NCBI RefSeq assembly: GCF_030128825.1
Contig: NZ_CP119128.1
Span: 372,001 to 436,000, forward strand
Source of the DNA: Sphingobium sp. WTD-1
GTDB lineage: Bacteria; Pseudomonadota; Alphaproteobacteria; Sphingomonadales; Sphingomonadaceae
DNA length: 64,000 bases
Direction: 5' to 3'
In this document: positions 2,906 through 21,770 of the stretch, one piece after another
Numbering within the stretch: the stretch's first letter is position 1
Layout: every line of letters starts with the position of its first letter
Position numbers and translations under genes: made by a program
The notes under the pieces: generated by a model
What the model saw: only the letters and a program-made list of their open reading frames with translations
Database searches by the model: none
What the model was told of the DNA's origin: nothing

Positions 2906-3307
2906 TCACATGTCGCTCATCGGCTTGTCGGCCATGGGCTTGGCGGTCTTCTTCTTCGCCGCCGGCTTGGCCTTCTTCATCGGCATCTTGCAGCAGCCAC
3001 TCTTCGCCTTACCGGCCATGCCCGAGCCGTTCGATGCAGGCGAGCCGCCGGACATGCCGGCCATCCCCGACATGCCCTGTTGATCCTGCTGGGCCGGTTG
3101 CCCCTGCTGCTTCTGCGCGCCGGCCTGATGATCCTTCATCATCTGATCGTGCATCTGCTGCCCGCCATGATCCATGCCCTGCTGGTGGGCATGGGCCGGC
3201 GCAGCCTGCGCGGGCGCGGGCGTCGACTGGGCGAGAGCGGTGCCGGCGGCGAAGGTTAGCGTCGCGAAGAGGCTGACGGGCGCCGCGAGAAATGTCGTCT
3301 GTCGCAT
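2906..3307 (-). CDS. His/Met/Lys-rich periplasmic putative metal-binding protein
   Basis: Protein of 133 aa with a signal peptide (MRQTTFLAAPVSLFATLTFA then AGTALAQ). The mature chain is low-complexity: His/Met-rich stretches (HAHQQGMDHGGQQMHDQMM), Gln-rich stretches, then a GCCKMPMKKAKPAAKKK tail with a Cys pair. Such composition fits soft-metal (copper) binding in the periplasm, by analogy and not by homology. The ATG at 3305-3307 has GGAGA upstream; the frame is open further upstream but that part lacks signal-peptide character. A palindromic element containing TACGTATA lies about 95 bases before the start and recurs upstream of two other genes in this block. Confidence 0.75.
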   Translation of the reverse strand: MRQTTFLAAPVSLFATLTFAAGTALAQSTPAPAQAAPAHAHQQGMDHGGQQMHDQMMKDHQAGAQKQQGQPAQQDQQGMSGMAGMSGGSPASNGSGMAGKAKSGCCKMPMKKAKPAAKKKTAKPMADKPMSDM

Positions 3308-3395
3308 TGAGGGTCTCCGAGTGTTCTTCCTGTTGCCCGATCGACGTTCCGATCCCGGCAATTCCGAAGCTTCAATGCTGCTAGCGAGACGCAGT

Positions 3396-3625: not shown

Positions 3626-3916
3626 TCAGCAACCACCGTCCGACCTGTGTGACATGCCGGAGGCGCCGTCCTGGTCCTGCGAATCCCGCATCGCCATTCG
3701 ATGGCCCTGCATCATCTGGCCGTGCATCTGCTCCTTACCGTGAGCCATGCCCTGCATGTGGGCAGGATCGGGCTGGGCAGGCGCCGGCCTGGCCTTGAGG
3801 GTCTCCTCAAGATCGGGCATGCCCGGCGGCATCCCGTCCGCCAGCACCGGTCCGGCACTGACGGCGAGGAAGCCGAGAGCTGCGAGCGAAGCGATCATTG
3901 CCGTCTTCTTGCGCAA
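3626..3916 (-). CDS. Small Met/His-rich periplasmic protein
   Basis: Protein of 96 aa with a signal peptide (MRKKTAMIASLAALGFLAVS then AGPVLA). The mature part is rich in Met and His (MPPGMPDLEE, HMQGMAHGKEQMHGQMMQGH) and ends with a Cys. The start is TTG at 3914-3916, supported by AAGGAA 7 bases upstream and by the basic n-region it creates; an ATG at 3898 is the alternative. No family is recognised. The composition and the neighbouring copper genes suggest periplasmic copper binding (inference). It shares the TTACGTATACAG upstream element with the gene at 2906-3307. Confidence 0.7.
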   Translation of the reverse strand: MRKKTAMIASLAALGFLAVSAGPVLADGMPPGMPDLEETLKARPAPAQPDPAHMQGMAHGKEQMHGQMMQGHRMAMRDSQDQDGASGMSHRSDGGC

Positions 3917-4144: not shown

Positions 4145-5458
4145 CTAATCCATGGCGGCCAGCAGACGCTCGAGAGGAATAGTGGCAAAAGTGGTGAAGC
4201 TGTCAGCAATGGCATAAGGCAGTACCAGCACCCGATTATGTACCATCGCGCCGCAGCTGTAGGCTACGTTTGGCACATAACCTTCGCGCTCATCCATGTC
4301 CGACCGCAAAAGCGGTAGCTTCGTCCGCGCCAGCAGCTTCGAGGGATCGTCACGGTCCAGCAGGCACGCCCCGATGCAATAGTTCCGAACGGCGCCGACT
4401 CCATGAGTTACGACCAGCCAGCCTTCGTCGATCTCGATCGGCGATCCGCAATTACCGATCTGGACAAACTCCCAAGGCCAGCGAGGTTCGATGGCTTTCG
4501 CTCCGCCACTCCAGTCGTGAATGTCCGCGGACGTCAGGAACCAGATATTTTCGTTATCCTCGCGCCCAAGCATGGCAAAGTGCCCGGCAATGCGTCGGGG
4601 GAAAAGCGCCATGCCCTTGCTACCGGTGGCATCCCCACGCAGCGGTCTGAGTTCGAATGTCCGGAAGTCCGGCGTGGACAACAACTCCTGCCGGACGGAC
4701 TGGCCGCTAAATGCCGTATATGTACCGAAATAGGTGGCTCGGCCATCGTCGTCCAGGAAGCGGACCAAGCGAAGGTCTTCGATGCCACCACGCTGGCTGG
4801 GGGTTGTCGGAAAGATCACGATCTCCGAGAGATCGTGGCTGCCATCGCACTTGATCCGAATGCCCGCGTCCGGCCCGTCCTCGCCGGAGATGTTTTCAGT
4901 CTCCAGCACGAGCGGCATGGGGCTCGGAGGATTGATTGCTATGGTTCCGTCCGCGGCGCAAAACCCGGTGCGAAAGGTGACGGAGGAGATATGCCCCTCG
5001 CCCACGCCTCGCAGGGAAAGAATGAATCGGAGAGAGTTTTCAGGTACAGCAGACTGATCAGGATGCAGGACGATGCTCGGATTGAAAAGCGCTGCTGCCT
5101 CATAGGAATATTCGTTGCAAAAATGGGCACCGATCAAGAGCGCCTGTTCATGGGTGACCTCGCAATCACAGACGATGATGCCATCAACCTCGTGGAACCG
5201 CCGCAAAAACAGGGACGGAACCTCACGATGCCTTCCCGAGAAATCATCAAGAATGCGTTGCAACTCATCGTGGAGCGATGCTGGGTCGAGCGCCAGGACG
5301 CGGTCGGCGATGCGCTGCGCACGTGGCTGATCCGGTACCGCATATTTATAGGTTTCCGTCGACGGCATATAGGGTCTGATCACTACCCTTGCTGGATTGG
5401 GGCGGAGCAATTCGGGTAGCCGGTTGACAAATTCGGCGGTTGACACTGACTTCTCCAA
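4145..5458 (-). CDS. GH130-family glycosidase/phosphorylase-like protein
   Basis: Protein of 437 aa without a signal peptide. The C-terminal two thirds resemble the five-bladed propeller of GH130 beta-mannoside phosphorylases and hydrolases. Motifs include GNCGSPIEIDEGWLVVTHGV, then IGACLLDRDDPSKLLART and YVPNVAYSCGAMV. The N-terminal 100 residues are an extension found only in some members. Known members act on beta-mannosides with phosphate; the substrate here cannot be read from sequence. It lies between metal-binding genes with no sugar genes nearby, so its presence in the block is odd. The 242 bases before its start (5459-5700) contain no supported gene. Confidence 0.72.
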   Translation of the reverse strand: MEKSVSTAEFVNRLPELLRPNPARVVIRPYMPSTETYKYAVPDQPRAQRIADRVLALDPASLHDELQRILDDFSGRHREVPSLFLRRFHEVDGIIVCDCEVTHEQALLIGAHFCNEYSYEAAALFNPSIVLHPDQSAVPENSLRFILSLRGVGEGHISSVTFRTGFCAADGTIAINPPSPMPLVLETENISGEDGPDAGIRIKCDGSHDLSEIVIFPTTPSQRGGIEDLRLVRFLDDDGRATYFGTYTAFSGQSVRQELLSTPDFRTFELRPLRGDATGSKGMALFPRRIAGHFAMLGREDNENIWFLTSADIHDWSGGAKAIEPRWPWEFVQIGNCGSPIEIDEGWLVVTHGVGAVRNYCIGACLLDRDDPSKLLARTKLPLLRSDMDEREGYVPNVAYSCGAMVHNRVLVLPYAIADSFTTFATIPLERLLAAMD

Positions 5459-5700: not shown

Positions 5701-6138
5701 TCAGCTCGACATGTCCGCCATCGTTCGGCAGCTCGCCGCGCATTTCTTGCAGGTGGCCGAGCAACGCGCGATCCGCTGGTCCGCGCTATGGCGTCCGCAT
5801 TCCTCGGCGCAGCGCTCGCAAGCGTCGGCGCAGGCGCGGCAGACGATGCGGTGCAGGGCAGATTCCCGCAGCATCGAGTTGGCGGTCGCCTGGCACAGTT
5901 CCGCACAGTCGTTCAGCATGGCGATCAGCGACGCCGTAGCTGACGCGCCGCCTTGCTTCGTCAGCCAAGCGGCGGTTTCCAGGCACATGCGGTGCGAAGC
6001 CACGCAATCGTCGATGCAGTCCGTCATCGACATCGCCATCCCTTCCATTCGATGCTGCTGCGCCGCCGCCGGCACAGCCAGCGTTCCGGCGGCGGCAAGG
6101 CCGGCGCCGGCCATCAGCAATTCGCGTCTCTCGATCAT
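5701..6138 (-). CDS. csp1: Four-helix-bundle copper storage protein (Csp1-like, DUF326)
   Basis: Protein of 145 aa. The Tat-type signal starts IERRELLMAGAGLAAAGTL, with cleavage after PAAAQ. The mature chain has 14 cysteines in CxxxC-like spacing along predicted helices (TDCIDDC, NDCAELC, CRACADACERCAEEC, CSATCKKCAASC). This matches the exported copper-storage protein Csp1, whose tetramer of four-helix bundles holds many Cu(I) ions. The second ATG at 6136-6138 has GGAGG at good spacing. It is the last gene of the MerR-led operon, 17 bases after the DUF1622 stop. This predicts periplasmic Cu(I) sequestration. Confidence 0.85.
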   Translation of the reverse strand: MIERRELLMAGAGLAAAGTLAVPAAAQQHRMEGMAMSMTDCIDDCVASHRMCLETAAWLTKQGGASATASLIAMLNDCAELCQATANSMLRESALHRIVCRACADACERCAEECGRHSADQRIARCSATCKKCAASCRTMADMSS

Positions 6139-6155
6139 CATGCACCTCCCATCTG

Positions 6156-6599
6156 CTATCCCTTGAGCGCTGTGCCGCATCCGGCGGCCTCAGCCGTCGC
6201 AGGCGACCCATCCGACGCCGCACGCGCCTTCTCCCGCGCCATCCGGGTTTCCTCCCAGGGCCAGTGGCCGTTGATCTCGACCCCGAGCGAGATGCTCAGG
6301 AAGGTCCGCACCAGCACCAGCCCGGCCAGAACGATGAGATCGTCGAGCGTTGGGTTGATCACCAGCGACTTGACGATGTCGCCGGCGACCAGAAATTCCA
6401 GGCCGAGCAGGATGCTGCGGCCGAGCGCCGAGCGGAACGCGCTATAGGCCTCGGTCCGGTCGCCCGCCCTCGCCCGCCGCGCAAACAGAAAGGTTGCGAG
6501 CCCCGCGCCGACCAGGATGGTCAGCGTGCCCGCCAGTTCCAGGCCAATCACCGCGAGCCGGAAGAAGGCGCTCAGCCAGTCGGCCTCAATGGTGATCAT
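6156..6599 (-). CDS. DUF1622-family membrane protein
   Basis: Protein of 147 aa with three hydrophobic segments (about 10-38, 60-80 and 84-105) and the conserved DUF1622 tail LGVEINGHWPWEE. The function of the family is unknown. The start overlaps the end of the heptahaem cytochrome gene by 14 bases, so translation is probably coupled. Its place between a multihaem cytochrome and a copper-storage protein suggests a membrane partner in the same process (inference). Confidence 0.75.
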   Translation of the reverse strand: MITIEADWLSAFFRLAVIGLELAGTLTILVGAGLATFLFARRARAGDRTEAYSAFRSALGRSILLGLEFLVAGDIVKSLVINPTLDDLIVLAGLVLVRTFLSISLGVEINGHWPWEETRMAREKARAASDGSPATAEAAGCGTALKG

Positions 6600-7308
6600 A
6601 CCAGCCTCGCTTGCGGATATTGTTGAAGCTGTCGGTGGCGTGACAGGCATAGCATTGGTCGACGCGCGCCTTCGATCCGGCTGCGCGCTGCGAGACCATG
6701 CTGAAATGCTCCATGAAGTGACTCGGCGGCGCCTTGTGGCACTCGGCGCACTGCGTCGAATTGACCGATGGATGGCGATAATTGACGATCTTCCAGCTGT
6801 CGGTCTTGTGGCAGCTCGCGCAGTCGGTGCCGAACAGGGCCTGGTGCGGATCGCGGAACGCATGGCAGCTCGCGCAATTGAGCGCGGTCTCGGGAGTCAG
6901 GCTTCTAGTGTTTGTCGACATGCCCGCCGAAGGCTGCCGCCACTTTGCCATGTCGAGCAAGGCGGCGTGATCCATGCGGATGATGCCGCGCTCTCCCTCA
7001 TGTTCGACGTGGCAGGAGGTGCACTGCGTCGCTTTCGCGTGGAACTGAGTCGACTGCTTCGTCCCGAAATCGGTGCCCGCATGGCAGGTGAGACAGGTCC
7101 GGGTTTCGACGCCCTTGCCCGGCGTGTGGCAGGCCGTGCATTGGCCGGCAAAGGACTGGTGCGCGCTCGAGAGCGGGCCGGGCGAGACGAGCTGCGCCAC
7201 CAGGCCGGCATCCCTCGGCGCGTCCGATCGCATCCGGATCGCGACCGCGGCGACCATCACCAGCAGGGCTGCGATGAAGACGGCGTAGGAAAGACGCTGC
7301 CAGCTCAT
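6586..7308 (-). CDS. Membrane-anchored heptahaem cytochrome c
   Basis: Protein of 240 aa with one N-terminal membrane anchor (about residues 8-27) and seven CxxCH haem-binding motifs: CTACH, CLTCH, CTSCH, CASCH, CASCH, CAECH and CYACH. Periplasmic electron carrier or reductase subunit. The first ATG with a good transmembrane anchor is at 7306-7308; it overlaps the cytochrome b stop by 4 bases. The haem pattern resembles NapC/NirT-related and cytochrome c7-type multihaem proteins, but no close family is recognised. It is likely to take electrons from the adjacent di-haem cytochrome b. Confidence 0.85.
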   Translation of the reverse strand: MSWQRLSYAVFIAALLVMVAAVAIRMRSDAPRDAGLVAQLVSPGPLSSAHQSFAGQCTACHTPGKGVETRTCLTCHAGTDFGTKQSTQFHAKATQCTSCHVEHEGERGIIRMDHAALLDMAKWRQPSAGMSTNTRSLTPETALNCASCHAFRDPHQALFGTDCASCHKTDSWKIVNYRHPSVNSTQCAECHKAPPSHFMEHFSMVSQRAAGSKARVDQCYACHATDSFNNIRKRGWYDHH

Positions 7309-8033
7309 AGCCAGCGCAGCCCGTAATAGATCGCCGCGCCGACGTGGAGCGCGAGCAGCGCGAAGATGAGACAGCCCAGCAGGATGTGCAGGAACCGCCA
7401 CCGCGCGAACAGGGTGTTGGTTGCCTCTTCGGCACGGATCGCGAATTCGGTATCGGCCAGCGCTGCGGCGATCCCCGCCTTGTCCTGGGGGCGCTGGCCC
7501 GCGGACGCATCCCCGGCGACGAACAGATAGCGCTTCCAGCCCGACAGCGGCGGGGCTGCGGTATCGGCCTGCGTCGGCGCCGCCGGCTCCTCGAGGAAGG
7601 CGGCGCGAAGCGAGGCCAGTTCTGACCTGCGTCCGCGCAGCGCCCGACCAAGCTGGGCAAGCAGGTAGCGGCCGATGAAGCCGGTGATGACCGTCATCAG
7701 CAGGAGGACGGTCAGAAGCAGGCCGACCGGGCTTTCGAGCTTGTGCGCGGCGTGGACCAGACCCAGGATCGGCGCCAGCACGCCGGCATAGATGTGGATG
7801 GCGAGCAGGGTTGGCTTGCTGACGACCCGGGAGAGCGCCTTGTCGACCCAGGCGATGTGCTTGGCCGCGACATAAGGAAGCGTCAGCAGCATCAGCACGA
7901 GCGCTGCGATCCCGATGATCCCGCCGGCCAGGCTACCCGGAAAGCGGGGCGACACATGCACGAGATAGCCGAACGGGAACAGCAGCAGGAACGCGACCAG
8001 CAGGCCCACGGCAATGTCGCTGCGTTCGCGCAT
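7305..8033 (-). CDS. Transmembrane di-haem cytochrome b-like protein
   Basis: Protein of 242 aa with about five membrane segments (8-28, 36-57, 76-97, 102-124, 214-238). Two helices each carry a His pair 14 residues apart (His80/His94 and His216/His230). That is the spacing that binds two b-haems across a bilayer in cytochrome b561, NarI and ferric-reductase-like proteins. A soluble loop of about 85 residues separates helices 4 and 5. The start overlaps the flavoprotein stop by one base (TGATG). Predicted role: carry electrons from the flavin/iron-sulfur protein across the membrane to the heptahaem cytochrome. Confidence 0.75.
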   Translation of the reverse strand: MRERSDIAVGLLVAFLLLFPFGYLVHVSPRFPGSLAGGIIGIAALVLMLLTLPYVAAKHIAWVDKALSRVVSKPTLLAIHIYAGVLAPILGLVHAAHKLESPVGLLLTVLLLMTVITGFIGRYLLAQLGRALRGRRSELASLRAAFLEEPAAPTQADTAAPPLSGWKRYLFVAGDASAGQRPQDKAGIAAALADTEFAIRAEEATNTLFARWRFLHILLGCLIFALLALHVGAAIYYGLRWL

Positions 8034-9943
8034 CAGGCTTCGACCACGAGCGGCGTGCCCGTCCCCTTCGCCTGGCACGCGAGCACATAGCCTTGCGCCT
8101 TGTCGGCGGGCGCAAGGCCGGATTCGACCTCCATCGTCACTTCGCCCTGCAGCAGCTTGACCACGCAGGCGCCGCATGTGCCCGCACGGCATGCATAGGG
8201 GATCTCGACGCCCGCGCCCTCGGCCGCCTCCAGCACGGTCTCGTCCGCGGGCAAGGCCGCCGACACCCCCGACACGGAGAAGGTCACCGTGCTCGGCGCC
8301 ACCTCGGCGCTCGGGGCCGGCTTATCCGCTGGCGGGGGCGCGGGCTTGACCTCGAGATCCTCGTGGTCGGCCGGCAGCGAGGCCGGACCGAACGCCTCGG
8401 TGTGCAGCTGCGCGTCGGGGACGCCGAGTTCCGCCAGCACGCCGCGCATCGCGCCCATCATCGCCGGCGGGCCGCACATATGGATGCGCCGGCTCGCGAT
8501 CTCCGGCACCGCGGCCAGGATCATCTCGCGCGTGATCGGCCCTTCGGGGCCCATCCAGACGGTGCCGGGCGCGCGCTGCATCGCGGCGACGACATGGAGG
8601 TTGGGAAAACGGCGTTCGAGCCGCTCGAGCTCGTCGCGGAACACGAATTCCTCGGTCGACCGTGCGCCGTAGAAGAAGAAGATATCACCCTTCCACGCGG
8701 TGTCGGTGAGATAGCGCAGCACCGACATCATCGGGGTGATGCCGACCCCGCCCGCGATCAGCACGATGCTCTGGGCATCCGTTCCCGTGAAGGTGAAGGC
8801 GCCGAACGGTCCGCTGACCTTCAGCAGATCGTCGGCGACGACCTTGTCGTGCAGGTATCGCGAGACCACGCCCTGCTCCTCGCGCTTGACCGTCAGTTCG
8901 ACATAGGCCCGCTGGGTCGGCGAAGAGGCGATCGTGTAGGAACGGCGCGCGGTCTTGCCCGCTTCGGGCTCTACCTCGACCTGCAGGAACTGGCCCGGCA
9001 GGAAGTCGAACGGCAGCCGGTCGGCGGTCGGGTCCGCGAGCCGGAAGGTCAGCACGCTCGGCGTCTCTCGCACGATCTGGACCACGCGCAGCTGCCCCGC
9101 CCAGCTTTTGGGCTTGCGCAGCGACGCCCCAGCGGGTGCGGCCGCATTGCTCGGCGCGAGCCCGGCGCTGTCGGCAACGGGTGCAGGCGCGGGCGCAACC
9201 CTGGTAGCGGGAGGGGCAGCCTTCGGCTCCGGCTTTGCTGGAACCTTGGCGGTGGCGACACCGCCGGCGATCGCCCCGATCCGCCGCAGGCGGAAGATCT
9301 GCAGCGCGATAAGCGTGGCGCTCACCAGCCCCAGGAACAGCATGAGAAGGAGGTGCGAGGGCGAGATGCCGAACCAGTGATCGGCATGGCCGGGCGCGGC
9401 CTGGTCGATGTCGAGCTGATCGCGCAGCCAGGCAAGCCCGACCTCCCGGGGCGGCTGCAAGCCCCCGATCGCGCCCTGCGCGGCGGTGCCGGAGCGGAAC
9501 AGGTCGGTTCCCTCGCGCAGGCGCCGCGCCGCATCGAGCCGGGCCGAGACCGTGGTCGCACGCGCGCCGTCGGCCGAGGCGGCGTTGATCATCGCCAGAC
9601 CCGTGCTTACCCGTTCGCCGGCCTGCGCAGCGACCCGCTGCCTTGCCGCTTCGTCAAGCGCGGGAAAGGCGAGCAGCTGCGAGATGAAGCCGGTCCGGCG
9701 CGATTCGTGGCCGTGCTCATTCTCCCCTTCCCCATTGATCATGCGATCCATCATGGGGTTCATCATCTTCGCCATGTCCGACGACCCCGGCTCTGCCGGT
9801 GCGGACATGCCCCCGCCGGCCGGCATGCCTGCGCCATGATGCGCGGCATGATCCTCGCCCTCCTGCGCGCCCGCGCTCGCGGACAGGCTGAGAGCGATTG
9901 CGCAGCCGAGGCTCAAGCGTCGAAGGCTGATCCGCCTGGACAT
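8033..9943 (-). CDS. Fusion: exported His/Met-rich N-terminus, membrane anchor, FNR-type FAD/NAD reductase and [2Fe-2S] ferredoxin
   Basis: Protein of 636 aa. Order: signal-like N-terminus with RRISLRRLSLG (1-27); His/Met-rich stretch (30-80); helical region; membrane segment about 195-216 (HLLLMLFLGLVSATLIALQIF); Ala/Pro linker. Then come the FAD domain (RRSYTIASSP), the NAD(P) domain (GGVGITPMMS, CGPPAMM) and a plant-type [2Fe-2S] domain (CRAGTCGACVVK with a distal LAC). The single anchor puts the reductase in the cytoplasm and the metal-binding-like region in the periplasm (inference). It would take electrons from NAD(P)H. Start at 9941-9943, six bases after AAGGGG; an ATG at 9949 is possible. 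Confidence 0.85.
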   Translation of the reverse strand: MSRRISLRRLSLGCAIALSLSASAGAQEGEDHAAHHGAGMPAGGGMSAPAEPGSSDMAKMMNPMMDRMINGEGENEHGHESRRTGFISQLLAFPALDEAARQRVAAQAGERVSTGLAMINAASADGARATTVSARLDAARRLREGTDLFRSGTAAQGAIGGLQPPREVGLAWLRDQLDIDQAAPGHADHWFGISPSHLLLMLFLGLVSATLIALQIFRLRRIGAIAGGVATAKVPAKPEPKAAPPATRVAPAPAPVADSAGLAPSNAAAPAGASLRKPKSWAGQLRVVQIVRETPSVLTFRLADPTADRLPFDFLPGQFLQVEVEPEAGKTARRSYTIASSPTQRAYVELTVKREEQGVVSRYLHDKVVADDLLKVSGPFGAFTFTGTDAQSIVLIAGGVGITPMMSVLRYLTDTAWKGDIFFFYGARSTEEFVFRDELERLERRFPNLHVVAAMQRAPGTVWMGPEGPITREMILAAVPEIASRRIHMCGPPAMMGAMRGVLAELGVPDAQLHTEAFGPASLPADHEDLEVKPAPPPADKPAPSAEVAPSTVTFSVSGVSAALPADETVLEAAEGAGVEIPYACRAGTCGACVVKLLQGEVTMEVESGLAPADKAQGYVLACQAKGTGTPLVVEA

Positions 9944-9966
9944 CCTCATCCCCTTAGTGTGCGAGC

Positions 9967-10287
9967 CTACATATCCTTCATCGGCATCGCCGCATTGCCC
10001 GGCGCGGGATCGGGTGCCGGCGCGGTCTGGTTGCCGGCCCCGGCGCGCATCGCGTCATGGTCCATCGCCTGACGGTGATGCCGCTCCATCTCGGCCTGGT
10101 TGCTCATCGCGTCCATCGGCGCCGCGTCTGCAGCGTTGCCGCTGTCGGTCAGGACCGGGGTGGCGGCGACGCTGTTCGCCGCGGGCGGCACCGTCTGGTC
10201 GGCCTGGCGGTCGCAGCCCGAAAGCGCGAGCGCCAGCAACAGGCTTCCGCCGACAAGTGGAAGGGCTTTCTTCGCATGGTCGATCAT
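9967..10287 (-). CDS. Small Met/His-containing lipoprotein
   Basis: Protein of 106 aa with a type II signal peptide (LLLALALSGC, lipidated Cys near residue 23). The mature part is Ala/Pro-rich with MERHHRQAMDHDAMR and a terminal MPMKDM, which could bind copper. AAGGAG lies 7 bases before the ATG. It lies in the MerR-led operon, 23 bases before the flavoprotein start. No family is recognised. Confidence 0.7.
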   Translation of the reverse strand: MIDHAKKALPLVGGSLLLALALSGCDRQADQTVPPAANSVAATPVLTDSGNAADAAPMDAMSNQAEMERHHRQAMDHDAMRAGAGNQTAPAPDPAPGNAAMPMKDM

Positions 10288-10346
10288 GGCTTTGCTCCTT
10301 GGCTTGAAAACTGTGTCCGGGCGCCATCCCTGGCGTCCGGACCGGC

Positions 10347-10568
10347 TCATTGCGCGCTGCGCAGAATCCGGAGACACCGGTCGTGCGAGAGGTTCATCGG
10401 GTTGCGCCCCTGCCCCTTCATCTCGCCATGATCATGCGGCGTCTGGAGACCCATATTGCCCTCCATCGCCCGGCAACTCTCGACCTGCGCCGAGGTCGGC
10501 CGCGTGGTCACACAGGCGCCTAGAAGCAGCGCCGGCGTGAGGACGGCGATCAAACGCATTTTCTTCAT
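10347..10568 (-). CDS. Small lipoprotein with conserved Cys/His motif
   Basis: Protein of 73 aa with a lipobox LLLGAC at about residues 15-20. The mature part contains ESCRAMEGNMG, PHDHGEMKGQG and HDRC. Its ATG overlaps the MerR stop in ATGA, so it is translationally coupled to the regulator. AAAGGGG lies 8 bases upstream. Function unknown; probably a metal-binding envelope lipoprotein. Confidence 0.7.
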   Translation of the reverse strand: MKKMRLIAVLTPALLLGACVTTRPTSAQVESCRAMEGNMGLQTPHDHGEMKGQGRNPMNLSHDRCLRILRSAQ

Positions 10569-11044
10569 GACAAAACCCCTTTCGCTCGTGGTGATCGTTC
10601 GTCCTGCGCTGCCTGATGTTTCTTGTTATGCTGCTGGTCTTTCCGCCGCGCCGTCAGGAAGGCGAGGATCGGGCAATCGGAGACCGGCACTTCGCCCGGG
10701 CATTCGTCGGCGAGCATCCGCAGCATGTCGCGGATATCCGACAGGCGCTCGAGCCGGGCTTCGGCGTCCGCGATCTTGGCAAGCGTGATATCGAGCACGG
10801 CCTGGGCATGCGCGGTGTCCGACGCCCTGAGTGCCAGCAGCTGCCGGGCCTGTTCGAGTGTGAAACCAAGCTCCTGCGCCGAGCGGATGAAATTGACGCG
10901 CTCGAGGTCGGTCGCGTCGTAGAGCCTGTAGCCCGCTGCCGTGCGCGCGGGCTCGCGCAGCAGGCCCATCCGCTCATAATAGCGGATCGTATCCCGCCCC
11001 ACGCCTGCGGCCGCGGCCAGTTCGCCGATCTTGAAATTGCCCAT
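10565..11044 (-). CDS. MerR-family heavy-metal-responsive regulator (CueR/HmrR-like)
   Basis: Protein of 159 aa. The N-terminal winged helix-turn-helix (KIGELAAAAGVGRDTIRYYER, 5-25) is followed by a long dimerisation helix. The C-terminal metal loop is ECPGEVPVSDCPIL, with two cysteines nine residues apart; CueR has eight. This predicts sensing of a monovalent or soft metal ion, most likely copper. The tail is longer than in CueR. It is the first gene of the operon running down to 5701, and a MerR-type promoter lies immediately upstream, so it should be autoregulated and control the electron-transfer/Csp genes. Confidence 0.88.
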   Translation of the reverse strand: MGNFKIGELAAAAGVGRDTIRYYERMGLLREPARTAAGYRLYDATDLERVNFIRSAQELGFTLEQARQLLALRASDTAHAQAVLDITLAKIADAEARLERLSDIRDMLRMLADECPGEVPVSDCPILAFLTARRKDQQHNKKHQAAQDERSPRAKGVLS

Positions 11045-11056
11045 GTCATCCGCTCG

Positions 11057-11088
11057 ATCATGCCGGTTGGACCATGGTCCAGGGTCAA
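11057..11088 (-). promoter_or_regulatory. MerR-type promoter/operator for the regulator-led operon
   Basis: On the minus strand, -35 TTGACC (11083-11088) and a -10-like hexamer (GCATGA, about 11058-11063) are separated by a 19-20 base spacer, longer than normal. The spacer contains the perfect palindrome GGACCATGGTCC (11069-11080). A stretched spacer with a central dyad is the signature of promoters activated by MerR-type DNA distortion. It lies about 15 bases before the regulator start. Confidence 0.75.
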
Positions 11089-11184: not shown

Positions 11185-11541
11185 TCAGTTCTTGCGAAGC
11201 TCGACGATGTCGTGCCTGGCAGGCGTGCCGTCGGCGACGGACACGTGCGCGAAGTGATCGTCAAAGATATGGTCGATCGTCACATGGCCGACGAGCTGGC
11301 GGTGATAGGTCGGCGCCACGCCCTTGGACGGACCCGGATGGGTCACGACGCGATAGACCTCGAGCTTCTGGCCGACCTCGGCGCCATCGGCCTTGCCGAT
11401 GCAGACGACCGTGCCGTTGCTGCCCGTGTCGACGATCGAGCCGCGCATGAACAGGCTGTGCCCGATGCCCTGGGCCATAGCGGGGACGGCAGCAAGCATC
11501 GAAATGCCGGCAAGCGCGACCATGAGAGTTTTTCTGACCAT
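11185..11541 (-). CDS. Small periplasmic protein, paralogue of the gene at 2429-2758
   Basis: Protein of 118 aa with a signal peptide (MVRKTLMVALAGISMLAAVP then AMAQ). The mature part starts GIGHSLFMRG and shares CIGKADGAEVGQ, LEVYRV and IDHIFDDHFAHV with the 2429-2758 product. AAGGAGG stands 5 bases before the ATG at 11539-11541. Function unknown. The two paralogues bracket the minus-strand metal block, and this copy is divergent from the genes leading into the Cus operon. Confidence 0.75.
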   Translation of the reverse strand: MVRKTLMVALAGISMLAAVPAMAQGIGHSLFMRGSIVDTGSNGTVVCIGKADGAEVGQKLEVYRVVTHPGPSKGVAPTYHRQLVGHVTIDHIFDDHFAHVSVADGTPARHDIVELRKN

Positions 11542-12482: not shown

Positions 12483-12545
12483 ACCCGCTCCGGAGCGGCG
12501 CGTCACATCTTGGCGCGCCGCCTCTGTCATGAGGGGATGATATCC

Positions 12546-13808
12546 ATGATCATGATGCCGAGGCGCGCTGTGCGACGCCTGTTGCTCTCTATCGGTGCGA
12601 CGCTTGCGAGCGCCTGGGCCGTGCCGGTGTCGGCCGGCCCGCTCACCTACGAGCAGGCAGTGAGGCTCGCTGCCGCCAACGCGCCAAGCCTCAAGGCGCG
12701 CGCGGCGGCGACAGCCGGCGCCCGCTCTTCGGCGGTCGCGGCCGATCGCCTGCCCGATCCGACGCTCGACCTGGGCCTGCAGAACTTCCCGGTGAGCGGC
12801 CCCAATGCCGGCAGCTTCACGCGCGACGATTTCACTATGGCGACGATCGGGTTCAGCCAGACCTTCCCCAATCTCGCCAAGCGCCATGCACGCGCCGCGC
12901 GCGCCGCGGCCGATATCGGTATCGCCGAGGCGGGCGAGCTGGTCGAAGGCCGCAACGTGCGGCTCGAGACCGCCCTCGCCTGGGTCGATCTCTATTATGG
13001 AGAACGCCGGCTCCGGCAGCTCGACCTGCTCGATGCCAGCCTCGACGACCTGCAGAAGACCGTGACCGCACGCCTGGCGTCGGGCAGCGCGCGCCCGAGC
13101 CAGGCGCTCGAGCCCGACCAGCTCCGCGCCGCCATCGCCGATCGCCGCGCCGAGATGGCTGCGGTGGTGGCGCAGGCGCGGGCCCGGCTCGCGCGCTATA
13201 CCGGCGACCCCGACCCGCAGGCGACGGGCGACCCGCCGATGCTCGATGTCGATCCGATCCGGCTGCGGGCCGGGATCGATGCGCTTCCCGCCCTGCGCGC
13301 GCAGGACGCGCGGATCGCAGTCGCCGAAGCGGACGTGCGTCTCGCGCGCGCCGACAAGCGCCCCGACTGGAAGGTCGGCGTCACCTATGGCCGGCGCGAT
13401 CCCATGTACGGCGACATGGCCTCGGTCGGCGTGTCGATCGACCTGCCGCTGTTCGCCGGCAAGCGCCAGAACCCCAGGATCGCTGCAAGCGAGAGCCTTG
13501 CGCAAGGGGGTCGGTTCGACCGCGAGGCGATCCGCCGCGAGCTGGTGGCGCAGCTCGACGCCGATCTCGCAGACCATGCCATGCATCTCTCCCGGTTGCG
13601 CAATGCCCGCGAGACGCTGGTGCCACTCGCCAGGCACCGCGCCGAGCTCGACCGCGACAGCTATGGCGCCGGCAAGCTCGACCTTGGCGCCGCGCTGCTC
13701 ACGACGCTCGGGCTCGCGGAGGCCGAGGTCGAGGCGCTCAACCGCGAAGCCGACGTCGCGCGCGACGCGGTCCGCATCACTATCACCTATGGGGAGGAGC
13801 GGCCATGA
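12546..13808 (+). CDS. cusC: TolC-family outer membrane channel (CusC-like)
   Basis: Protein of 420 aa with a signal peptide (RRAVRRLLLSIGATLASAWA, cleavage before GPLTYEQAV). It has the duplicated helical/beta-barrel repeats of outer membrane efflux proteins: LTYEQAVRLAAANAPSLKAR near the N-terminus and VGVSIDLPLFAGKRQNPRI near 300. It forms the outer-membrane exit duct for the CusBA pump. GAGGGG lies 9 bases before the chosen ATG; other in-frame ATGs lie 3 codons either side. The stop overlaps the CusB start in ATGA. Confidence 0.88.
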   Translation: MIMMPRRAVRRLLLSIGATLASAWAVPVSAGPLTYEQAVRLAAANAPSLKARAAATAGARSSAVAADRLPDPTLDLGLQNFPVSGPNAGSFTRDDFTMATIGFSQTFPNLAKRHARAARAAADIGIAEAGELVEGRNVRLETALAWVDLYYGERRLRQLDLLDASLDDLQKTVTARLASGSARPSQALEPDQLRAAIADRRAEMAAVVAQARARLARYTGDPDPQATGDPPMLDVDPIRLRAGIDALPALRAQDARIAVAEADVRLARADKRPDWKVGVTYGRRDPMYGDMASVGVSIDLPLFAGKRQNPRIAASESLAQGGRFDREAIRRELVAQLDADLADHAMHLSRLRNARETLVPLARHRAELDRDSYGAGKLDLGAALLTTLGLAEAEVEALNREADVARDAVRITITYGEERP

Positions 13809-15295
13809 CGCTCGATAAATCCGCGCTGCGCTGGGGCGCATCGATCCTGGCTGTCGCGCTGCTGGCCGGCGGCACAGGCTATTGGGCTGGCCATCGCCAG
13901 GCACCGCAATCGGAGGCGACCACGCCCGCCGGGGCAGGCAAAGTCCTTTACTGGTACGATCCGATGTTCCCCAACCAGAAGTTCGACAAGCCCGGCAAGT
14001 CGCCCTTCATGGATATGCAGCTCGTGCCGCGATACGCGGACGGAGGAAGCGCCGGCGCGGCCCCCACGGTCGCCGTCGATCCCGCCGCGCGGCAGAGCCT
14101 GGGATTGCGGGTCGTCGCGGCGAAGATGGGCAGCCTTGCCTCGGCCCTCGAGGTCACCGGCACGATCGACTTCAACCAGCGCGACGTCGCCGTCATCCAG
14201 GCGCGTTCGGGCGGGTTCGTGAGCCGCGTCTATGCGCGAGCGCCCGGGGACGTGGTCCGCGCCGGCGCGCCGATCGCGGACCTGCTCCTGCCCGAATGGG
14301 GCGGCGCGCAGACCGAATATCTGAGCGTCAGGCGGCTCGGCAAGCCCGACCTCACCGCGGCCGCGCGCCAGCGACTGCGGCTGATGGGCATGTCCGACGG
14401 CCTCATCGCCAGCGTCGAGCGGAGCGGACGCCCGAACGGCGTGGTGACGATCACGACGCCGATCTCGGGCACGATCCAGACGCTCGACGCCCGTGCCGGC
14501 GTGACGCTCGCCATGGGCCAGACGCTCGCCCAGGTAAGCGGGCTCGGCACCGTCTGGCTCAATGCCGCGGTGCCCGAAGCGCGCGCGGGCGATGTCCGGG
14601 TCGGCCAGAATGCCAGCACCACGCTGGCGGGCTTCCCCGGCGAGCGCTTCGCCGGCCGGGTGATCGCGATCCTGCCGACCACGCAGGCCGACAGCCGCAC
14701 GCTCACCGTGCGGATCGAGCTGCCCAACCGGGACGGCCGGTTGCGGCCGGGCATGTTCGCCAGCGTCGCGCTTGGCGGCGATGCCAAGCCGGCGCTGCTG
14801 GTGCCGAGCGAAGCGGTGATCCGCACGGGCAGGCGCACGCTCGTCATGCTGGCCGCAGGCGACGGGCGCTATCATCCCGCCGAGGTCCGCATCGGCCGCG
14901 AGGCAGGCGGCGAGACCGAGATCCTTGCCGGCCTGTCGCCCGGCGAGAACGTCGTCGTCTCGGGGCAGTTCCTGATCGATTCCGAGGCGAGCCTGTCGGG
15001 AATCGAGGCGCGGCCGATCGGCGGCGGTGCGGCATCGGCGACCATCGCCGCGCCGGCGTCGAAAGCCACGCTGTACGAGACGACGGGCAAGATCGAGCGG
15101 ATCACGGCCAATTCGGTGACGCTCAGCCACGAGCCCGTTCCCGCGCTCGACTGGCCGGCGATGACGATGACCTTCGCGCTCGCCAATCCGGGCATCGCGC
15201 GCGGCTTCAAGGCGGGTGACCGGGTCCGGTTCGGGTTCGACCGGCCCCCGGCGGGACCGACGCTGCGGCATATGGCGAAGGTGGCGGGCCAGTGA
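13805..15295 (+). CDS. cusB: RND periplasmic adaptor with C-terminal CusF domain (CusB-CusF fusion)
   Basis: Protein of 496 aa. N-terminal membrane anchor (about 8-28), then the heavy-metal-binding YHYDPM-like domain ([20 protein letters not shown], about 49-68). The barrel-sandwich, lipoyl and beta-barrel adaptor regions follow. Last comes a CusF-type domain (about 420-490) with [17 protein letters not shown], giving the His, Trp and Met-x-Met Cu(I)/Ag(I) ligands. It links CusA to the outer-membrane channel and can present metal to the pump. It overlaps both neighbours by 4 bases, so the operon is tightly coupled. Confidence 0.92.
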
Positions 15296-18200
15296 TCGCC
15301 CATCTCATCCGCTGGTCGGTGAGGAACCGCTTCTTCGTCGTGCTCGGCATGCTCGCGCTGGTCGGCGCGGGCCTGTGGGCGGTGCGCTCGACCCCGATCG
15401 ACGCGCTGCCCGATCTTTCCGACGTGCAGGTCGTGATCCGCACTTCCTATCCGGGTCAGGCGCCGCAGATCGTCGAGAACCAGATCACCTATCCGCTCAC
15501 CACCACCATGCTGTCGGTGCCCGGCGCCAAGACGGTGCGCGGCTATAGCTTCTTCGGCGACAGCTTCGTCTATGTGATCTTCGAGGACGGCACCGATCTC
15601 TACTGGGCGCGCAGCCGCGTGCTCGAATATCTCAACCAGGTCCAGGGTCGGTTGCCGGCCAGCGCCCGCAGCGCGCTCGGGCCGGACGCGACCGGGGTCG
15701 GCTGGGTCTATGAATATGCGCTGGTCGACCGCACCGGCCGGCACGATCTCTCGCAGCTTCGCGGGTTGCAGGACTGGTTCCTGCGCTACGAGCTGAAGAC
15801 CGTGACCGGCGTGGCCGAAGTCGCCAGCATCGGCGGCATGGTCAAGCAGTACCAGGTGCTGCTCGATCCGGTGAAGCTCGCGGCCTACGGCGTAACCCAC
15901 GCCCAGGCAGTGCAGGCGATCAGCCAAGCCAATCAGGAAGCCGGCGGCTCGGTGCTGGAAATGGCCGAGGCCGAATATATGGTCCGCGCCTCGGGCTATC
16001 TGAAAACGCTCGACGATTTCCGGGCAATCCCGCTCAAGACTGCGGCGGGCGGCGTGCCCGTCCGGCTCGGCGATGTCGCCACGATCCAGGTCGGCCCCGA
16101 GATGCGGCGCGGCATCGCCGAACTGAACGGCGAAGGCGAGGTCGCCGGCGGCGTCGTTATTCTTCGGTCAGGCAAGAACGCCCGTGAGACCATCGCGGCG
16201 GTCAAGGACAAGCTCGCCGATCTCAGGAAAAGCCTGCCGCCGGGCGTCGAGGTGGTCACGGTCTATGACCGCTCGCAGCTGATCGATCGCGCGGTCGAGA
16301 ACCTCACCCGCAAGCTGGTCGAGGAGTTCATCGTCGTCGCATTGGTCTGCGCCCTGTTCCTCTGGCACGTCCGCTCGGCGCTGGTCGCGATCCTGACCTT
16401 GCCGCTCGGTGTGCTGGCCGCGTTCGTCGTAATGCGGTTCCAGGGGGTGAACGCCAACATCATGTCGCTGGGCGGCATCGCCATCGCCATCGGCGCGATG
16501 GTGGATGCGGCGGTCGTCATGATCGAGAACGCCCACAAGAGGATCGAACGCTGGGAGCAGGATCACCCGGACAGACATCTCGATGGCGAGATGCGCTGGA
16601 TCGTCGTCACCGAGGCGGCGGCCGAGGTCGGGCCGGCGCTGTTCTTCAGCCTGCTGATCATCACGCTGTCGTTCATTCCGGTCTTCACCCTGGAGGCGCA
16701 GGAAGGCCGGCTGTTCGCGCCGCTCGCCTTCACCAAGACCTATGCGATGGGCGCGGCCGCGATCCTGTCGGTGACCCTGGTGCCGATCCTGATGGGCTGG
16801 CTGATCCGGGGCCGCATTCCGGCCGAGCAGGCCAATCCGGTCAATCGCTGGCTCACCAATATCTACCGGCCCGCGATCGACTGGACGATGAAGCGGCCCA
16901 AGGCAGTGCTGCTGATCGCGGCTCTGGTGTTCGCCACCACGGCCTGGCCGCTCAGCCGGCTCGGCGGCGAGTTCATGCCCAATCTCGACGAGGGCGACCT
17001 GCTCTACATGCCCTCGGCGCTGCCGGGCCTCTCGGCCGCCAAGGCGAGTGAGCTGCTCCAGCAGACCGACCGCCTGATCAAGACCGTGCCCGAAGTCGAA
17101 AGCGTGTTCGGCAAGGCCGGCCGCGCCGAGACCGCGACCGATCCCGCGCCGCTCGAAATGTTCGAGACGACGATCCAATTCAAGCCCCGCGACCAGTGGC
17201 GGTCGGGCATGACGCCCGAACGCCTTGTCGACGAGCTCGATCGCCGGGTGAAGCTTCCGGGTCTCGCCAATATCTGGGTGCCGCCGATCCGCAACCGCAT
17301 CGACATGCTCGCGACGGGCATCAAGAGCCCGATCGGGGTCAAGGTGTCGGGCAGTGACCTCGCCGAGCTCGACCGCATCGCGCATGATGTCGAGACCGTG
17401 GCCAGGAGCGTGCCCGGCGTCAGCTCGGCGCTCGCCGAGCGGCTGACCGGCGGACGCTATGTCGATGTCGACATAGACCGCGCCGCCGCCGCGCGGTTCG
17501 GGCTCAACATCGCCGACGTCCAGGCCATCGTCTCCGGCGCGATCGGCGGCGAGACGATCGGCGAGACGGTCGAGGGCCTCGCCCGCTATCCGATCAGCGT
17601 GCGCTATCCGCGCGAATTGCGCGACAGCCTCGAAAGGCTGCGGGCGCTACCGATCCTGACGCCCGCGGGCCAGCAGATCACCTTGGGCACCGTGGCAAAC
17701 GTCTCGATCGCCGAGGGACCGCCGATGCTCAAGACCGAGAATGCCCGGCCTTCGACCTGGGTCTACGTCGATGTGCGCGGGCGCGATCTTGCCTCGGTGG
17801 TCGGCGATCTGCAGCGTGCGGTGGCGAAACAGGTCAGGCTCTCGCCTGGGGTCAGCATCGCTTACTCTGGCCAGTTCGAATATCTCGAGCGCGCGGTCGA
17901 CCGCTTGAAGCTGGTCGTGCCCGCGACGCTGCTGATCATCTTCGTGCTGCTCTACCTCATCTTCGGCCGCTTCGACGAGGCGGCGCTGATCATGGGGACG
18001 CTGCCGTTTGCGCTGACCGGCGGCATCTGGACGCTTTATCTGCTGGGGTTCAACCAGTCGATCGCCACCGGGGTCGGGTTCATCGCGCTCGCCGGCGTCT
18101 CCGCCGAGTTCGGGGTGGTGATGCTGATCTATCTCAAGAACGCGCTGGCCGAGCGCGGCGCACATCCGGACGCTGCCGAGGTCGAGGCCGCCGTGCGCGA

Positions 18201-18435
18201 AGGCGCGCTGCTGCGCGTCCGTCCCAAGGCGATGACGGTGGCGGTGATCCTGGCCGGCCTGCTGCCGATCCTGCTGGGATCAGGCGCGGGTTCGGAGGTC
18301 ATGAGCCGGATTGCCGCGCCGATGATCGGCGGCATGCTGACCGCGCCCTTGCTCTCAATGTTCGTCCTGCCCGCCGCCTACCTGCTGTTGCGCCGGCCCA
18401 AGACCGATCCCATCCCTCAACCCGTTTCATCATGA
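15292..18435 (+). CDS. cusA: Heavy-metal RND efflux pump, copper/silver type (CusA)
   Basis: Protein of 1047 aa with the full RND layout of 12 membrane helices and two large periplasmic domains. The fourth-helix segment [19 protein letters not shown] is the CusA (HME4, monovalent metal) signature with its proton-relay acidic residues. Met-rich substrate residues are expected in the cleft, but alignment is needed to assign them. It exports Cu(I)/Ag(I) from periplasm or cytoplasm by proton antiport with CusB and CusC. The GTG start overlaps the CusB stop in GTGA. The stop overlaps an upstream ATG of cusF. Confidence 0.95.
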
Positions 18436-20446: not shown

Positions 20447-20977
20447 TTACTTGTTGCTGCCTTCTACGGTCGCGCCAGAAAGGCGACGGCTCAGTTCTAT
20501 CCGGCGATGGCTACGCATTTTGAAGGTGTCTGGCCCAACGCGCCGATACTCAATGAAGCCGAGAGAACGCCAAAATCGCTCTGCCGCTTCATTCGCTTCC
20601 AGCACGGCCAACCGAATCTCTGTGGAACCTCTCGCAGCGGCCCAGCTTTCGACCGTCGAGTAAATTGAGCGTCCGACGCCACGACCACGCTGTGCGGCAT
20701 CTACGATCATGAAGCCGAGATACCATGTGCCATCACGCGGATAATCGCGGAGGATGGCCGCGATTGCATATAGGCCGCCAGGCCCCTTCCATCCCAGGAC
20801 AGCTTGATTGTGGGCGCTCTTTTCGGGCGGCACATCGGAGAAAAGCTCGCGAGCATCGTCCAGCGTGGGCGCGGCCCCGTCCTGCAACAGGAAATAGTCG
20901 CTGCAACGGTTGTACAGGTCTGCAACGTCTGCGGCGTCCGCTTGGGTAAGTTTGATCGGGGCTCCCGTCATCATCAT
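20447..20977 (-). CDS. GNAT-family N-acetyltransferase
   Basis: Protein of 176 aa. The acetyl-CoA pyrophosphate-binding motif is QRGRGVGRSIYSTV (about 95-108), with upstream WYLGFMIVD and the C-terminal FWRSLGFIEYRRV strand. This is the normal GNAT order and size. The substrate is unknown; it does not match the aminoglycoside AAC families I recognise. It overlaps the tnpR stop in ATGA, so it is expressed with the resolvase as a passenger of the Tn3-family element. Confidence 0.82.
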   Translation of the reverse strand: MMMTGAPIKLTQADAADVADLYNRCSDYFLLQDGAAPTLDDARELFSDVPPEKSAHNQAVLGWKGPGGLYAIAAILRDYPRDGTWYLGFMIVDAAQRGRGVGRSIYSTVESWAAARGSTEIRLAVLEANEAAERFWRSLGFIEYRRVGPDTFKMRSHRRIELSRRLSGATVEGSNK

Positions 20978-21594
20978 CGCGTTTTGGCAGCAAGCACGCG
21001 CTGACCGTAATCCCGGAGTTCCCCGTTGGGACCGACATAGCGGTAGAGAGTGACGCGCTCGATCCCGAGTTCCTTGCAGAGGTCGGAAACGGACGTGTCG
21101 CGTTGGGCCATAGCAGCCTGAGCGAGCCGCACCTGGGCCTTGGAGAGGGCGAACTTGCGGCCACCCTTGCGTCCCCGCGCGCGGGCAGCGGCCAGGCCAG
21201 CCATGGTGCGCTCGCGGATCATATCCCGCTCAAACTCCGCCAGTGTGGCAAAAATGCCGAACACCATCCGGCCCGATGGCGTCGTGGTGTCGATCTGCGC
21301 GCCCTTGCCGGTGAGCACCCGCAGACCGATACCGCGATCCGACAGATTCTGCACCGTGCTGACCAGGTGGGTGAGCGTTCGGCCGAGCCGGTCGAGCTTC
21401 CAAACGATGAGGACATCGCCGTCGCGCAACGATTTCAGGCAGGCGGCAAGACCGGGGCGATCATCACGGCTACCGGATGCACGATCATCATAGATATTGC
21501 CTGGCTCGACACCGGCAGCGCGAAGGGCATCGTGCTGCAGGTCGAGCGACTGCGAGCCGTCGGCTTTGGACACGCGGGCGTAGCCGATCAGCAT
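20974..21594 (-). CDS. tnpR: Tn3-family serine resolvase
   Basis: Protein of 206 aa. N-terminal resolvase domain with the catalytic Ser in YARVSKADGSQ and the active-site Arg patch (LKSLRDGDVLIVWKLDRLGR). A long E-helix region follows (FGIFATLAEFERDMIRERT), then a C-terminal helix-turn-helix (SVSDLCKELGIERVTLYRYV). It resolves cointegrates at res. It is divergent from tnpA, and the intervening res region has been split by the integron transposon. Confidence 0.93.
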   Translation of the reverse strand: MLIGYARVSKADGSQSLDLQHDALRAAGVEPGNIYDDRASGSRDDRPGLAACLKSLRDGDVLIVWKLDRLGRTLTHLVSTVQNLSDRGIGLRVLTGKGAQIDTTTPSGRMVFGIFATLAEFERDMIRERTMAGLAAARARGRKGGRKFALSKAQVRLAQAAMAQRDTSVSDLCKELGIERVTLYRYVGPNGELRDYGQRVLAAKTR

Positions 21595-21629
21595 GGATCA
21601 CAAACGAAGGTTTGAGGCGGTGACGAACA

Positions 21630-21654
21630 TGTCATTTTCAGAAGACGACTGCAC
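21630..21654 (+). repeat. IRt, 25-bp terminal repeat of the Tn402-like element
   Basis: Begins TGTCATTTTCAGAAGACG and ends CTGCAC next to tniA. It is followed by further TniA-type subrepeats containing CTGCAC or GTGCAG up to about 21760. The outside flank is GAACA. Confidence 0.93.
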
Positions 21655-21770
21655 CAGTTGATTGGGCGTAATGGCTGTTGTGCAGCCAGCTCCTGACAGT
21701 TCAATATCAGAAGTGATCTGCACCAATCTCGACTATGCTCAATACTCGTGTGCACCAAAGCGAGGTGAGC

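Follow-up and report, generated by a model that had tools for sequence, protein, structure and literature searches.

What a compact run of electron-transfer genes does between a MerR-type regulator gene and a gene for a copper-storage-like protein is the question raised by a 64,000-nucleotide stretch of Sphingobium sp. WTD-1 (contig NZ_CP119128.1, positions 372,001 to 436,000), here called the window. The first-pass annotation, made from the sequence alone, had described eight minus-strand genes, most of them overlapping or closely spaced, and the open reading frame (ORF) list of the window placed all eight on that strand in the same compact order, from the regulator to the copper storage protein (Csp)-like product (Table 1). 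It had also read them as a transmembrane electron-transfer chain, a reading supported by the components and invariant cofactor residues given below. Three of the genes, encoding a flavoprotein, a cytochrome b and a heptahaem cytochrome c, form a conserved triad, which is very probably a transmembrane electron conduit and probably has a role in the copper response.

Comparison was made with 87 loci, comprising the best 80 of 318 relatives recovered with a heptahaem profile (one genome per species) and seven plasmid regions. All three genes were present in 84 of them, nearly always consecutively, which indicates an association of the genes beyond chance; in one locus (L096) they were spaced apart, and the three exceptions were a contig beginning inside the cytochrome b gene (L039) and two loci with the cytochrome c only (L044 and L048). 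The flavoprotein was split into two frames in several loci, e.g. L069, L072, L084 and L099. The triad was also complete in all of 11 sampled loci found by the cytochrome b alone, six from a phylum sample, one (G647) from a class sample and four from the phylum sample of a Rhodopirellula record, with G473 (contig end), the window's own locus and G744 excluded and with three that appear to duplicate selected loci (L119/L080, L120/L089 and L171/L110). The gene order that had been expected beside MerR was thus conserved for the triad, but not for Csp (9/87), DUF1622 (22/87) or MerR (few loci), which are optional; in other lineages, genes for LTXXQ or Metal_resist proteins, zwf/gnd or glutamate dehydrogenase occupied the position of MerR. 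A fixed cassette of five or eight genes was rejected, only the triad being constant across loci; the cassette is complete in Sphingobium sp. SYK-6 and Caulobacter sp. FWC26.

The triad is widely distributed. Among the best 40 of 1590 plasmid records, the flavoprotein was found in sphingomonads, Caulobacter, Qipengyuania, Bradyrhizobium, Roseomonas, Acetobacter, Gluconobacter, Alteromonas, Legionella and Methylocystis, and the best 80 of the 318 heptahaem-profile records included Planctomycetota, Acidobacteria, Chloroflexi, Elusimicrobiota, Omnitrophota, Cyclobacteriaceae and one Williamsia bin, several being metagenome bins, so that phyla represented by single bins need care. Evenly drawn samples gave 1) seven strong matches, including the window's own (E 1.6e-72 or better), and 12 weak ones in 398 genomes of the window's phylum, 2) three strong matches, again including the window's own (E 3.4e-55 or better), and three weak ones in 385 genomes of its class, and 3) five matches, the genome serving as centre included, among 199 genomes from the phylum to which the Rhodopirellula record belongs. 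No NCBIfam family scored above its cut-off for seven small or uncharacterised genes flanking other triads or for a further cytochrome b. It was also noticed that AMP-phosphorylase-like and phosphoribosyl pyrophosphate (PRPP)-synthase-like genes form a second recurrent neighbour set of the triad, at L004, L008, L038, L043, L058, L065, L069, L070, L072, L074, L086, L088 and L089, most of which also contain a beta-CASP gene.

The flavoprotein consists, in order, of a signal-like start, a Met/His-rich outer segment, one transmembrane helix, a domain for flavin adenine dinucleotide (FAD) and NAD(P)H, and a [2Fe-2S] ferredoxin. The scores of FAD_binding_6, NAD_binding_1 and Fer2 (56.4, 68.2 and 65 bits against Pfam cut-offs of 21.1, 22 and 21) place it among FNR-type reductases with a plant-type [2Fe-2S] domain; together with the CXXCH count of the cytochrome c and the DUF1622 match, the Pfam scan bore out what had been read for these three products. 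By the positive-inside pattern, upon inspection, the FAD, NAD(P)H and [2Fe-2S] domains are predicted to face the cytoplasm. Met plus His had a median of 9.0% in the outer segment vs 4.7% in the FAD/NAD part over 66 rows, only rows with a recognised FAD motif being counted and L005 and L031 being one locus, and at least eight of these residues lay within 40 residues in 42 of the 66 rows; the longest ORF was used for the count, so that some starts are too early. A relationship of the outer domain to LTXXQ or Metal_resist was rejected at hhalign probabilities of 0.1% and 4.8%, respectively.

About five transmembrane helices were predicted for the cytochrome b, whose AlphaFold2 model had a predicted local distance difference test (pLDDT) score of 87. 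In 59 aligned cytochromes b, His 26, 80, 94, 97, 216 and 230 were invariant, and the two His pairs 14 residues apart noted in the first-pass annotation are thereby confirmed as H80/H94, on helix 73-98 of the model, and H216/H230, on helix 185-241. The charge distribution, by inspection, predicts that the side of H80 and H216 is cytoplasmic and that of H94 and H230 outside. Two His pairs about 14 residues apart on two membrane helices are a feature of the NOX/ferric reductase superfamily, which these pairs display. Pfam names for the protein were sub-threshold only, neither Ferric_reduct (PF01794, 16.8 vs 28 bits) nor Ni_hydr_CYTB of [NiFe]-hydrogenase cytochromes b (PF01292, 19.2 vs 30.1 bits) reaching its cut-off. 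Foldseek with the model gave no clear match (best E 0.31), the structural matches including SpNOX, NOX5 and STEAP4, but with an unrelated talin domain ranking first, and profiles of the two cytochromes retrieved nothing useful from the PDB sequences. A protein search scored 2983 relatives of the cytochrome b at E 1e-10 or better among 8000 candidates; in the 120 listed, those bearing a name were annotated as hypothetical protein or iron reductase, apart from one with an ABC-transporter name. A copper-specific third metal site at the invariant H26/H97 was considered but is not supported, counterparts being present in the alignment in some cytochromes b of a more distant family (L150-L160).

All seven CXXCH motifs of the cytochrome c were invariant in 63 aligned sequences, as were eight further His, enough for bis-His ligation of all seven haems, which is the predicted mode. 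Its AlphaFold2 model (pLDDT 63, predicted template modelling score 0.37) was set aside as a basis for a fold search; an N-terminal helix (residues 3-29) was read as a membrane anchor. Membership of MtrC/MtrF or NapC/NrfH was not indicated, PF22113 scoring 29.1 against 30 and TIGR03153 20.1 against 134.2. From these component parts, the chain would run from NAD(P)H through FAD, [2Fe-2S], haem b and haem b to the haems c.

The link to copper was examined in neighbourhoods of about 10 kb on each side, where the contig allowed, with 43 control stretches at fixed positions in triad-bearing genomes (G351, G200, G301, G159, G647, G791, G882 and G744-G747), most of them on the contig that carries the triad, and with two short contigs of G938 and G920 added. 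Counting by score thresholds, from which single-linkage cluster counts differ slightly, revealed that 1) multicopper oxidase, CopB, DUF411/CopG, Csp, P1B-ATPase or CsoR occurred near 59 of the 87 selected and six of the 11 sampled triads, as against 4/43 controls (P1B only in all four) and 0/11 loci of the distant family, 2) multicopper oxidase, CopB, DUF411 and Csp alone gave 49/87, 4/11, 0/43 and 0/11, respectively, 3) the set with LTXXQ, Metal_resist and DUF1622 added and P1B and CsoR removed gave 74/87, 9/11, 0/43 and 0/11, and 4) addition of CusA and wider families raised the counts to 80/87 selected, 10/11 sampled and 10/43 controls, generic RND and P-type ATPase profiles firing in controls. 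The neighbour profiles had been built from families recurring beside the triad, so that the enrichment is partly built in, whereas the Pfam names are independent; Fisher tests of the six families against controls gave p 1e-10 (selected) and 0.003 (sampled), values that overstate independence since the 87 loci were picked by similarity and include related species. The proposed copper link therefore holds beyond this genome. Genes for zwf, gnd or glutamate dehydrogenase were near 22 of the 87 triads, two of the 11 sampled ones and one of the 43 controls, which fits a reduced-nucleotide donor; gnd being annotated as NAD-dependent in BTAi1 and Qipengyuania, this donor could be NADH or NADPH.

The distant family (L150-L160) has a related cytochrome b and a multihaem cytochrome c of 8-34 haems, with a flavoprotein in front in five of the 11 loci, and its loci may be further electron conduits. 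No copper families were found in the 11 stretches fetched, and the five flavoproteins inspected, 421-458 amino acids where in one piece, were without the long Met/His-rich outer segment; between the two sets of loci compared, the Met-rich arm varies along with the copper link. One of these loci (L150) is flanked by hybrid histidine kinases, and two (L156 and L157) by large proteins with weak tetratricopeptide-repeat (TPR)/outer-membrane matches.

A MerR gene was located just upstream of the triad operon in a sphingomonad (L002), Caulobacter (L003), Qipengyuania (L004) and Sphingobium subterraneum (L064). CueR regulators have two loop Cys and lack a third one at the position used by mercury MerR. 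Alignment of the window's regulator to the CueR chains and to 4ua1, which we take to be a mercury MerR, revealed that it keeps loop Cys 115 and 124 and has Ala at the third Cys of 4ua1, as in the CueR type. The earlier description as CueR/HmrR-like thus fits the MerR domains and the loop Cys pair, but not the profile scores, the CueR model TIGR02044 giving 108.2 against a cut-off of 147.4 bits and the MerR model TIGR02051 slightly more (115.5 vs 150.85), and 4ua1 outscoring CueR. From the sequence we infer that the regulator probably responds to a Cu(I)/Ag(I)-type metal.

Careful examination of the region before merR revealed an operator consisting of a -35 element (TTGACC), a 20-bp spacer holding a 14-bp palindrome (TGGACCATGGTCCA) and a -10-like CATGAT, which ends 12 bases before the merR start; a dyad in a lengthened spacer is a feature common to the MerR family. 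When up to three mismatches were allowed, the pattern was expected 0.08 times in the window, where it had this sole location, read on both strands. It was exact before merR in S. subterraneum, whose cytochrome b is only 39% identical to that of the window, had three mismatches in Qipengyuania, about 350 bp before the annotated first gene, and took a weaker form before merR in a near-identical Caulobacter-type pair (L003/L116). The whole genome (5.67 Mb) contained three copies with up to three mismatches, the two outside the window being at C2:348631 and C6:3359, and none of a reversed-pattern control. The second copy precedes a response-regulator gene near a P1B-ATPase/MerR pair, and the third (two mismatches) precedes a gene for a cytosolic-type Csp3 of 115 amino acids (L201:2932-3279, minus strand, on a 4.9-kb contig; 3lmf, E 4e-37; RkCSP3, E 3e-29).

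The sequence itself shows which components are present, in what order, among which copper genes and behind which operator, and upon this a mechanism may be proposed. NAD(P)H would reduce the cytoplasmic FAD, from which electrons would pass via the [2Fe-2S] domain to the two membrane haems b and on to the seven membrane-anchored haems c on the outer face. The MerR regulator would switch the triad on within a mobile copper-resistance island, the Met/His-rich outer segment of the flavoprotein would hold copper near the haems, and Cu(II) on the outer side would be reduced to Cu(I), the form taken by Csp, CusCBA and Met-rich carriers. We infer the outward direction from redox potentials and from the dehydrogenase neighbours. 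Cus pumps and Met-rich carriers take Cu(I), as does Csp, and for this reason Cu(II) is favoured as acceptor, a tentative choice to which we give rather less than an even chance. A transmembrane conduit with a copper-response role and Cu(II) reduction is the best overall explanation, held with a confidence just short of even. More doubtful is the wider proposal that the triad represents a widespread undescribed family of NAD(P)H-driven transmembrane cupric reductases in which seven haems form the outlet and a Met-rich arm holds the copper, and which supply outer-side Cu(I) to storage and efflux in Proteobacteria, Planctomycetota and Acidobacteriota at the least. Accounts of how bacteria withstand copper beyond the inner membrane mostly invoke pumps and Cu(I) oxidation. 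If the explanation is true, an outward chain of reducing power at copper loci in several phyla would be a third principle of copper defence, and it could explain the Cu(I) source for exported storage proteins, the loading of Csp being, according to the accessible part of a review, not completely known (PMC7558416).

Several observations weigh against Cu(II) reduction or against a specific copper role. Multicopper oxidases were found in 34 of the 87 triad neighbourhoods, and since these enzymes oxidise Cu(I), a Cu(II) reductase alongside could create a futile cycle. Seven of the 87 loci were without any copper or metal family, three of them with at least 17 kb of sequence (L009, L031 and L108), the LTXXQ and Metal_resist proteins are not copper-specific, and Csp was detected in so few loci. 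As for the regulator, its best solved relative was 4ua1 (110 bits, vs 81 bits for CueR), its loop is as long as that of 4ua1 and one residue longer than that of CueR, and it reached no NCBIfam cut-off. The operator pattern was present in only three of the 87 triad loci (L002, L004 and L064; 0/43 controls), so that most triads must be under other control and the element belongs to MerR-led loci only. The extra invariant His of the cytochrome b would seem, by alignment, to mark no copper site, since part of the distant family shares counterparts. In addition, the triad of the Alteromonas macleodii plasmid pAM1A3 runs co-directionally into a hydrogenase cluster, with one unknown gene of 407 amino acids between them (L007:7761-14480), a neighbour hinting that the conduit may serve other partners too.

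Four other explanations were weighed against Cu(II) reduction. By analogy with MsrPQ or DsbD, the conduit might supply electrons to periplasmic proteins that copper has damaged or oxidised (thiols, methionines, CopG) rather than to copper itself. The presence of DUF411/CopG near 16 of the 87 triads, directly adjoining in Phenylobacterium, Bradyrhizobium and Rhodopseudomonas loci, would agree with such a repair function; we regard it as unlikely, CopG not being found at most loci and no thiol-disulfide or Met-sulfoxide reductase family occurring among the named recurrent neighbours. To a similar degree improbable is an emergency respiratory branch that would take over the reoxidation of NAD(P)H once Fe-S enzymes have been damaged by copper, with soluble cytochromes, oxygen or peroxide receiving the electrons: the named recurrent neighbours included neither an oxidase nor a peroxidase, and the Met/His-rich outer segment and the storage and efflux partners would be left unexplained.

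There is, we judge, little chance that a general conduit merely rides on metal-resistance islands, the copper link being a matter of hitch-hiking. The copper island does recur on sphingomonad plasmids, seven records carrying at least 80% of the window's first 24 kb and 25 listed rows of the plasmid comparison a third or more of it, and such islands carry mixed genes; however, the link recurs with different copper genes across phyla and in evenly drawn Proteobacteria and Planctomycetota, and a MerR-type operator stands at the operon and also precedes a Csp3 gene. An inward flow, in which a periplasmic donor such as H2 would reduce NAD(P)+ by way of the haems, is very improbable, for by standard potentials Cu(I) is unable to reduce NAD(P)+, and the hydrogenase cluster of the Alteromonas plasmid, which would favour it (of the [NiFe] type in the available text of PMC4781885), was annotated beside one of the eight regions read, the other loci not having been screened for hydrogenases.

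The features of the operon and its surroundings are collected in Table 1, with gene starts as annotated in the near-identical plasmid pSLPG of Sphingobium sp. SYK-6, in which neighbouring genes overlap by 1-14 bp or are separated by 14-59 bp, spacings that agree with those of the window.

Table 1. Features of the triad operon and adjacent elements (positions in the window)
Feature	Position	Strand	Basis
Small secreted protein gene upstream of merR, possible ninth gene	11185-11541	-	Relatives at equivalent position
MerR-type operator/promoter	11057-11088	-	Pattern search; recurs in relatives
MerR-family regulator gene	10565-11044	-	Pfam MerR_1 and MerR-DNA-bind above cut-off; PDB alignments
Putative lipoprotein gene, 73 amino acids	10347-10568	-	ORF, lipobox-like LGAC by inspection; overlaps merR stop
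Putative lipoprotein gene, 106 amino acids, Met/His-rich tail	9967-10287	-	ORF; 321 bp in SYK-6 annotation
Flavoprotein fusion gene	8033-9943	-	Pfam, conservation, Met/His content
Cytochrome b gene	7305-8033	-	Alignment, AlphaFold2 model, structural matches
Heptahaem cytochrome c gene	6586-7308	-	Seven CXXCH, alignment, model helix
DUF1622 membrane protein gene	6156-6599	-	PF07784
Csp-like gene	5701-6141	-	RkCSP3 homology, 14 Cys
Divergent copper RND pump CusCBA, neighbour outside operon	12510-18435	+	Pfam OEP, HlyD_D23, CusF_Ec, HMBD, ACR_tran

Of the smaller products, the 73-residue lipoprotein matched no Pfam or NCBIfam family and the possible ninth gene product no Pfam family; relatives of the latter lay on the same side of the triad and on the same strand in L002, L003, L004, L007, L055, L064 and L087. 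DUF1622 membership was clear (76.6 bits against a cut-off of 24). The last gene product, described earlier as a 14-cysteine Csp1-like protein, has 14 Cys counted from the annotated start and belongs to the Csp family in the broad sense, as a four-helix type with most Cys aligned to RkCSP3 (6zif, E 2e-12), but stayed below the Csp1 cut-off (TIGR04401, 28.7 vs 100 bits); its N-terminus, RRELL followed by a hydrophobic stretch, appears by inspection to be an RR-type signal peptide. The divergent pump consists of an outer-membrane efflux protein, CusB with a CusF domain, and CusA, and genes for a multicopper oxidase, CopB and CopG lie just past the left edge of the window (L202).

Downstream of the operon, two small secreted-looking Met/His-rich proteins (2906-3322 and 3626-3916, minus strand), the second with no Pfam match, are possible copper binders. 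Between them and the Csp gene lies a GH130-type glycoside phosphorylase gene (4145-5458, minus strand), which is not annotated at the matching place in SYK-6 pSLPG. A resolvase and a Mu-type transposase were located at 20974-23450, and the first 24 kb matched thousands of enterobacterial plasmids, presumably via this resolvase/Mu-type transposon.

An open-access literature search found no description of the triad, which is not proof of absence, and the earlier remark that no named system of such a composition was known agrees with the papers listed. Alteromonas plasmids carry copper resistance and hydrogenase genes together according to the available portions of PMC4781885 and PMC8478169, the hydrogenase itself being the subject of PMC3701524 as far as its accessible text goes; the word cytochrome does not occur in the main texts of the former two, nor ferredoxin in that of PMC8478169. 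For CrpH, a PepSY_TM protein of Bordetella pertussis, a function as periplasmic copper reductase is speculated upon by its authors, in the available part of PMC13038864; as described there, CrpH differs from the triad in being a single protein of another family that serves heme-copper oxidase function and not resistance. The operon's last gene product resembles Csp1 and Csp3 in being a Cys-rich four-helix relative with a putative export signal, its nearest solved structure being RkCSP3, and differs from Csp1 in its sub-threshold score and in being optional across triad loci. The distant loci share with the triad a related cytochrome b, a multihaem c and, in five of 11, the flavoprotein, and are set apart by their haem number, by the lack of copper families in the fetched stretches and by the lack of a long Met/His-rich outer segment.

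With regard to function, the proposed activity is closest to that of CcoG of Rhodobacter capsulatus, a membrane cupric reductase whose loss raises Cu sensitivity and which, in the accessible text of PMC7558416, is suggested to supply Cu(I) to chaperones and P1B-ATPases. The likeness lies in membrane reduction of Cu(II) to Cu(I), which is only proposed for the triad; CcoG has, according to that text, two 4Fe-4S clusters and an unknown donor, whereas the triad has FAD, [2Fe-2S], probably two haems b, seven haems c and NAD(P)H binding, and the Pfam scan of the operon proteins detected no CcoG-type 4Fe-4S polyferredoxin domain. With regard to architecture, the triad resembles NOX and ferric reductases (SpNOX, NOX5, STEAP) in having an NAD(P)H-FAD domain that would pass electrons to a membrane cytochrome that has two haems and His pairs located on two of its helices. 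It differs from them in being split into separate proteins, in the extra [2Fe-2S] domain and in the heptahaem outlet, and it is not classed as a member because the cytochrome b fails the corresponding Pfam cut-offs, PF01794 among them. Judged by sequence, the triad would work like a split NADPH-oxidase/ferric-reductase-type chain with a multihaem outlet, a variant of that design rather than a member of the family.

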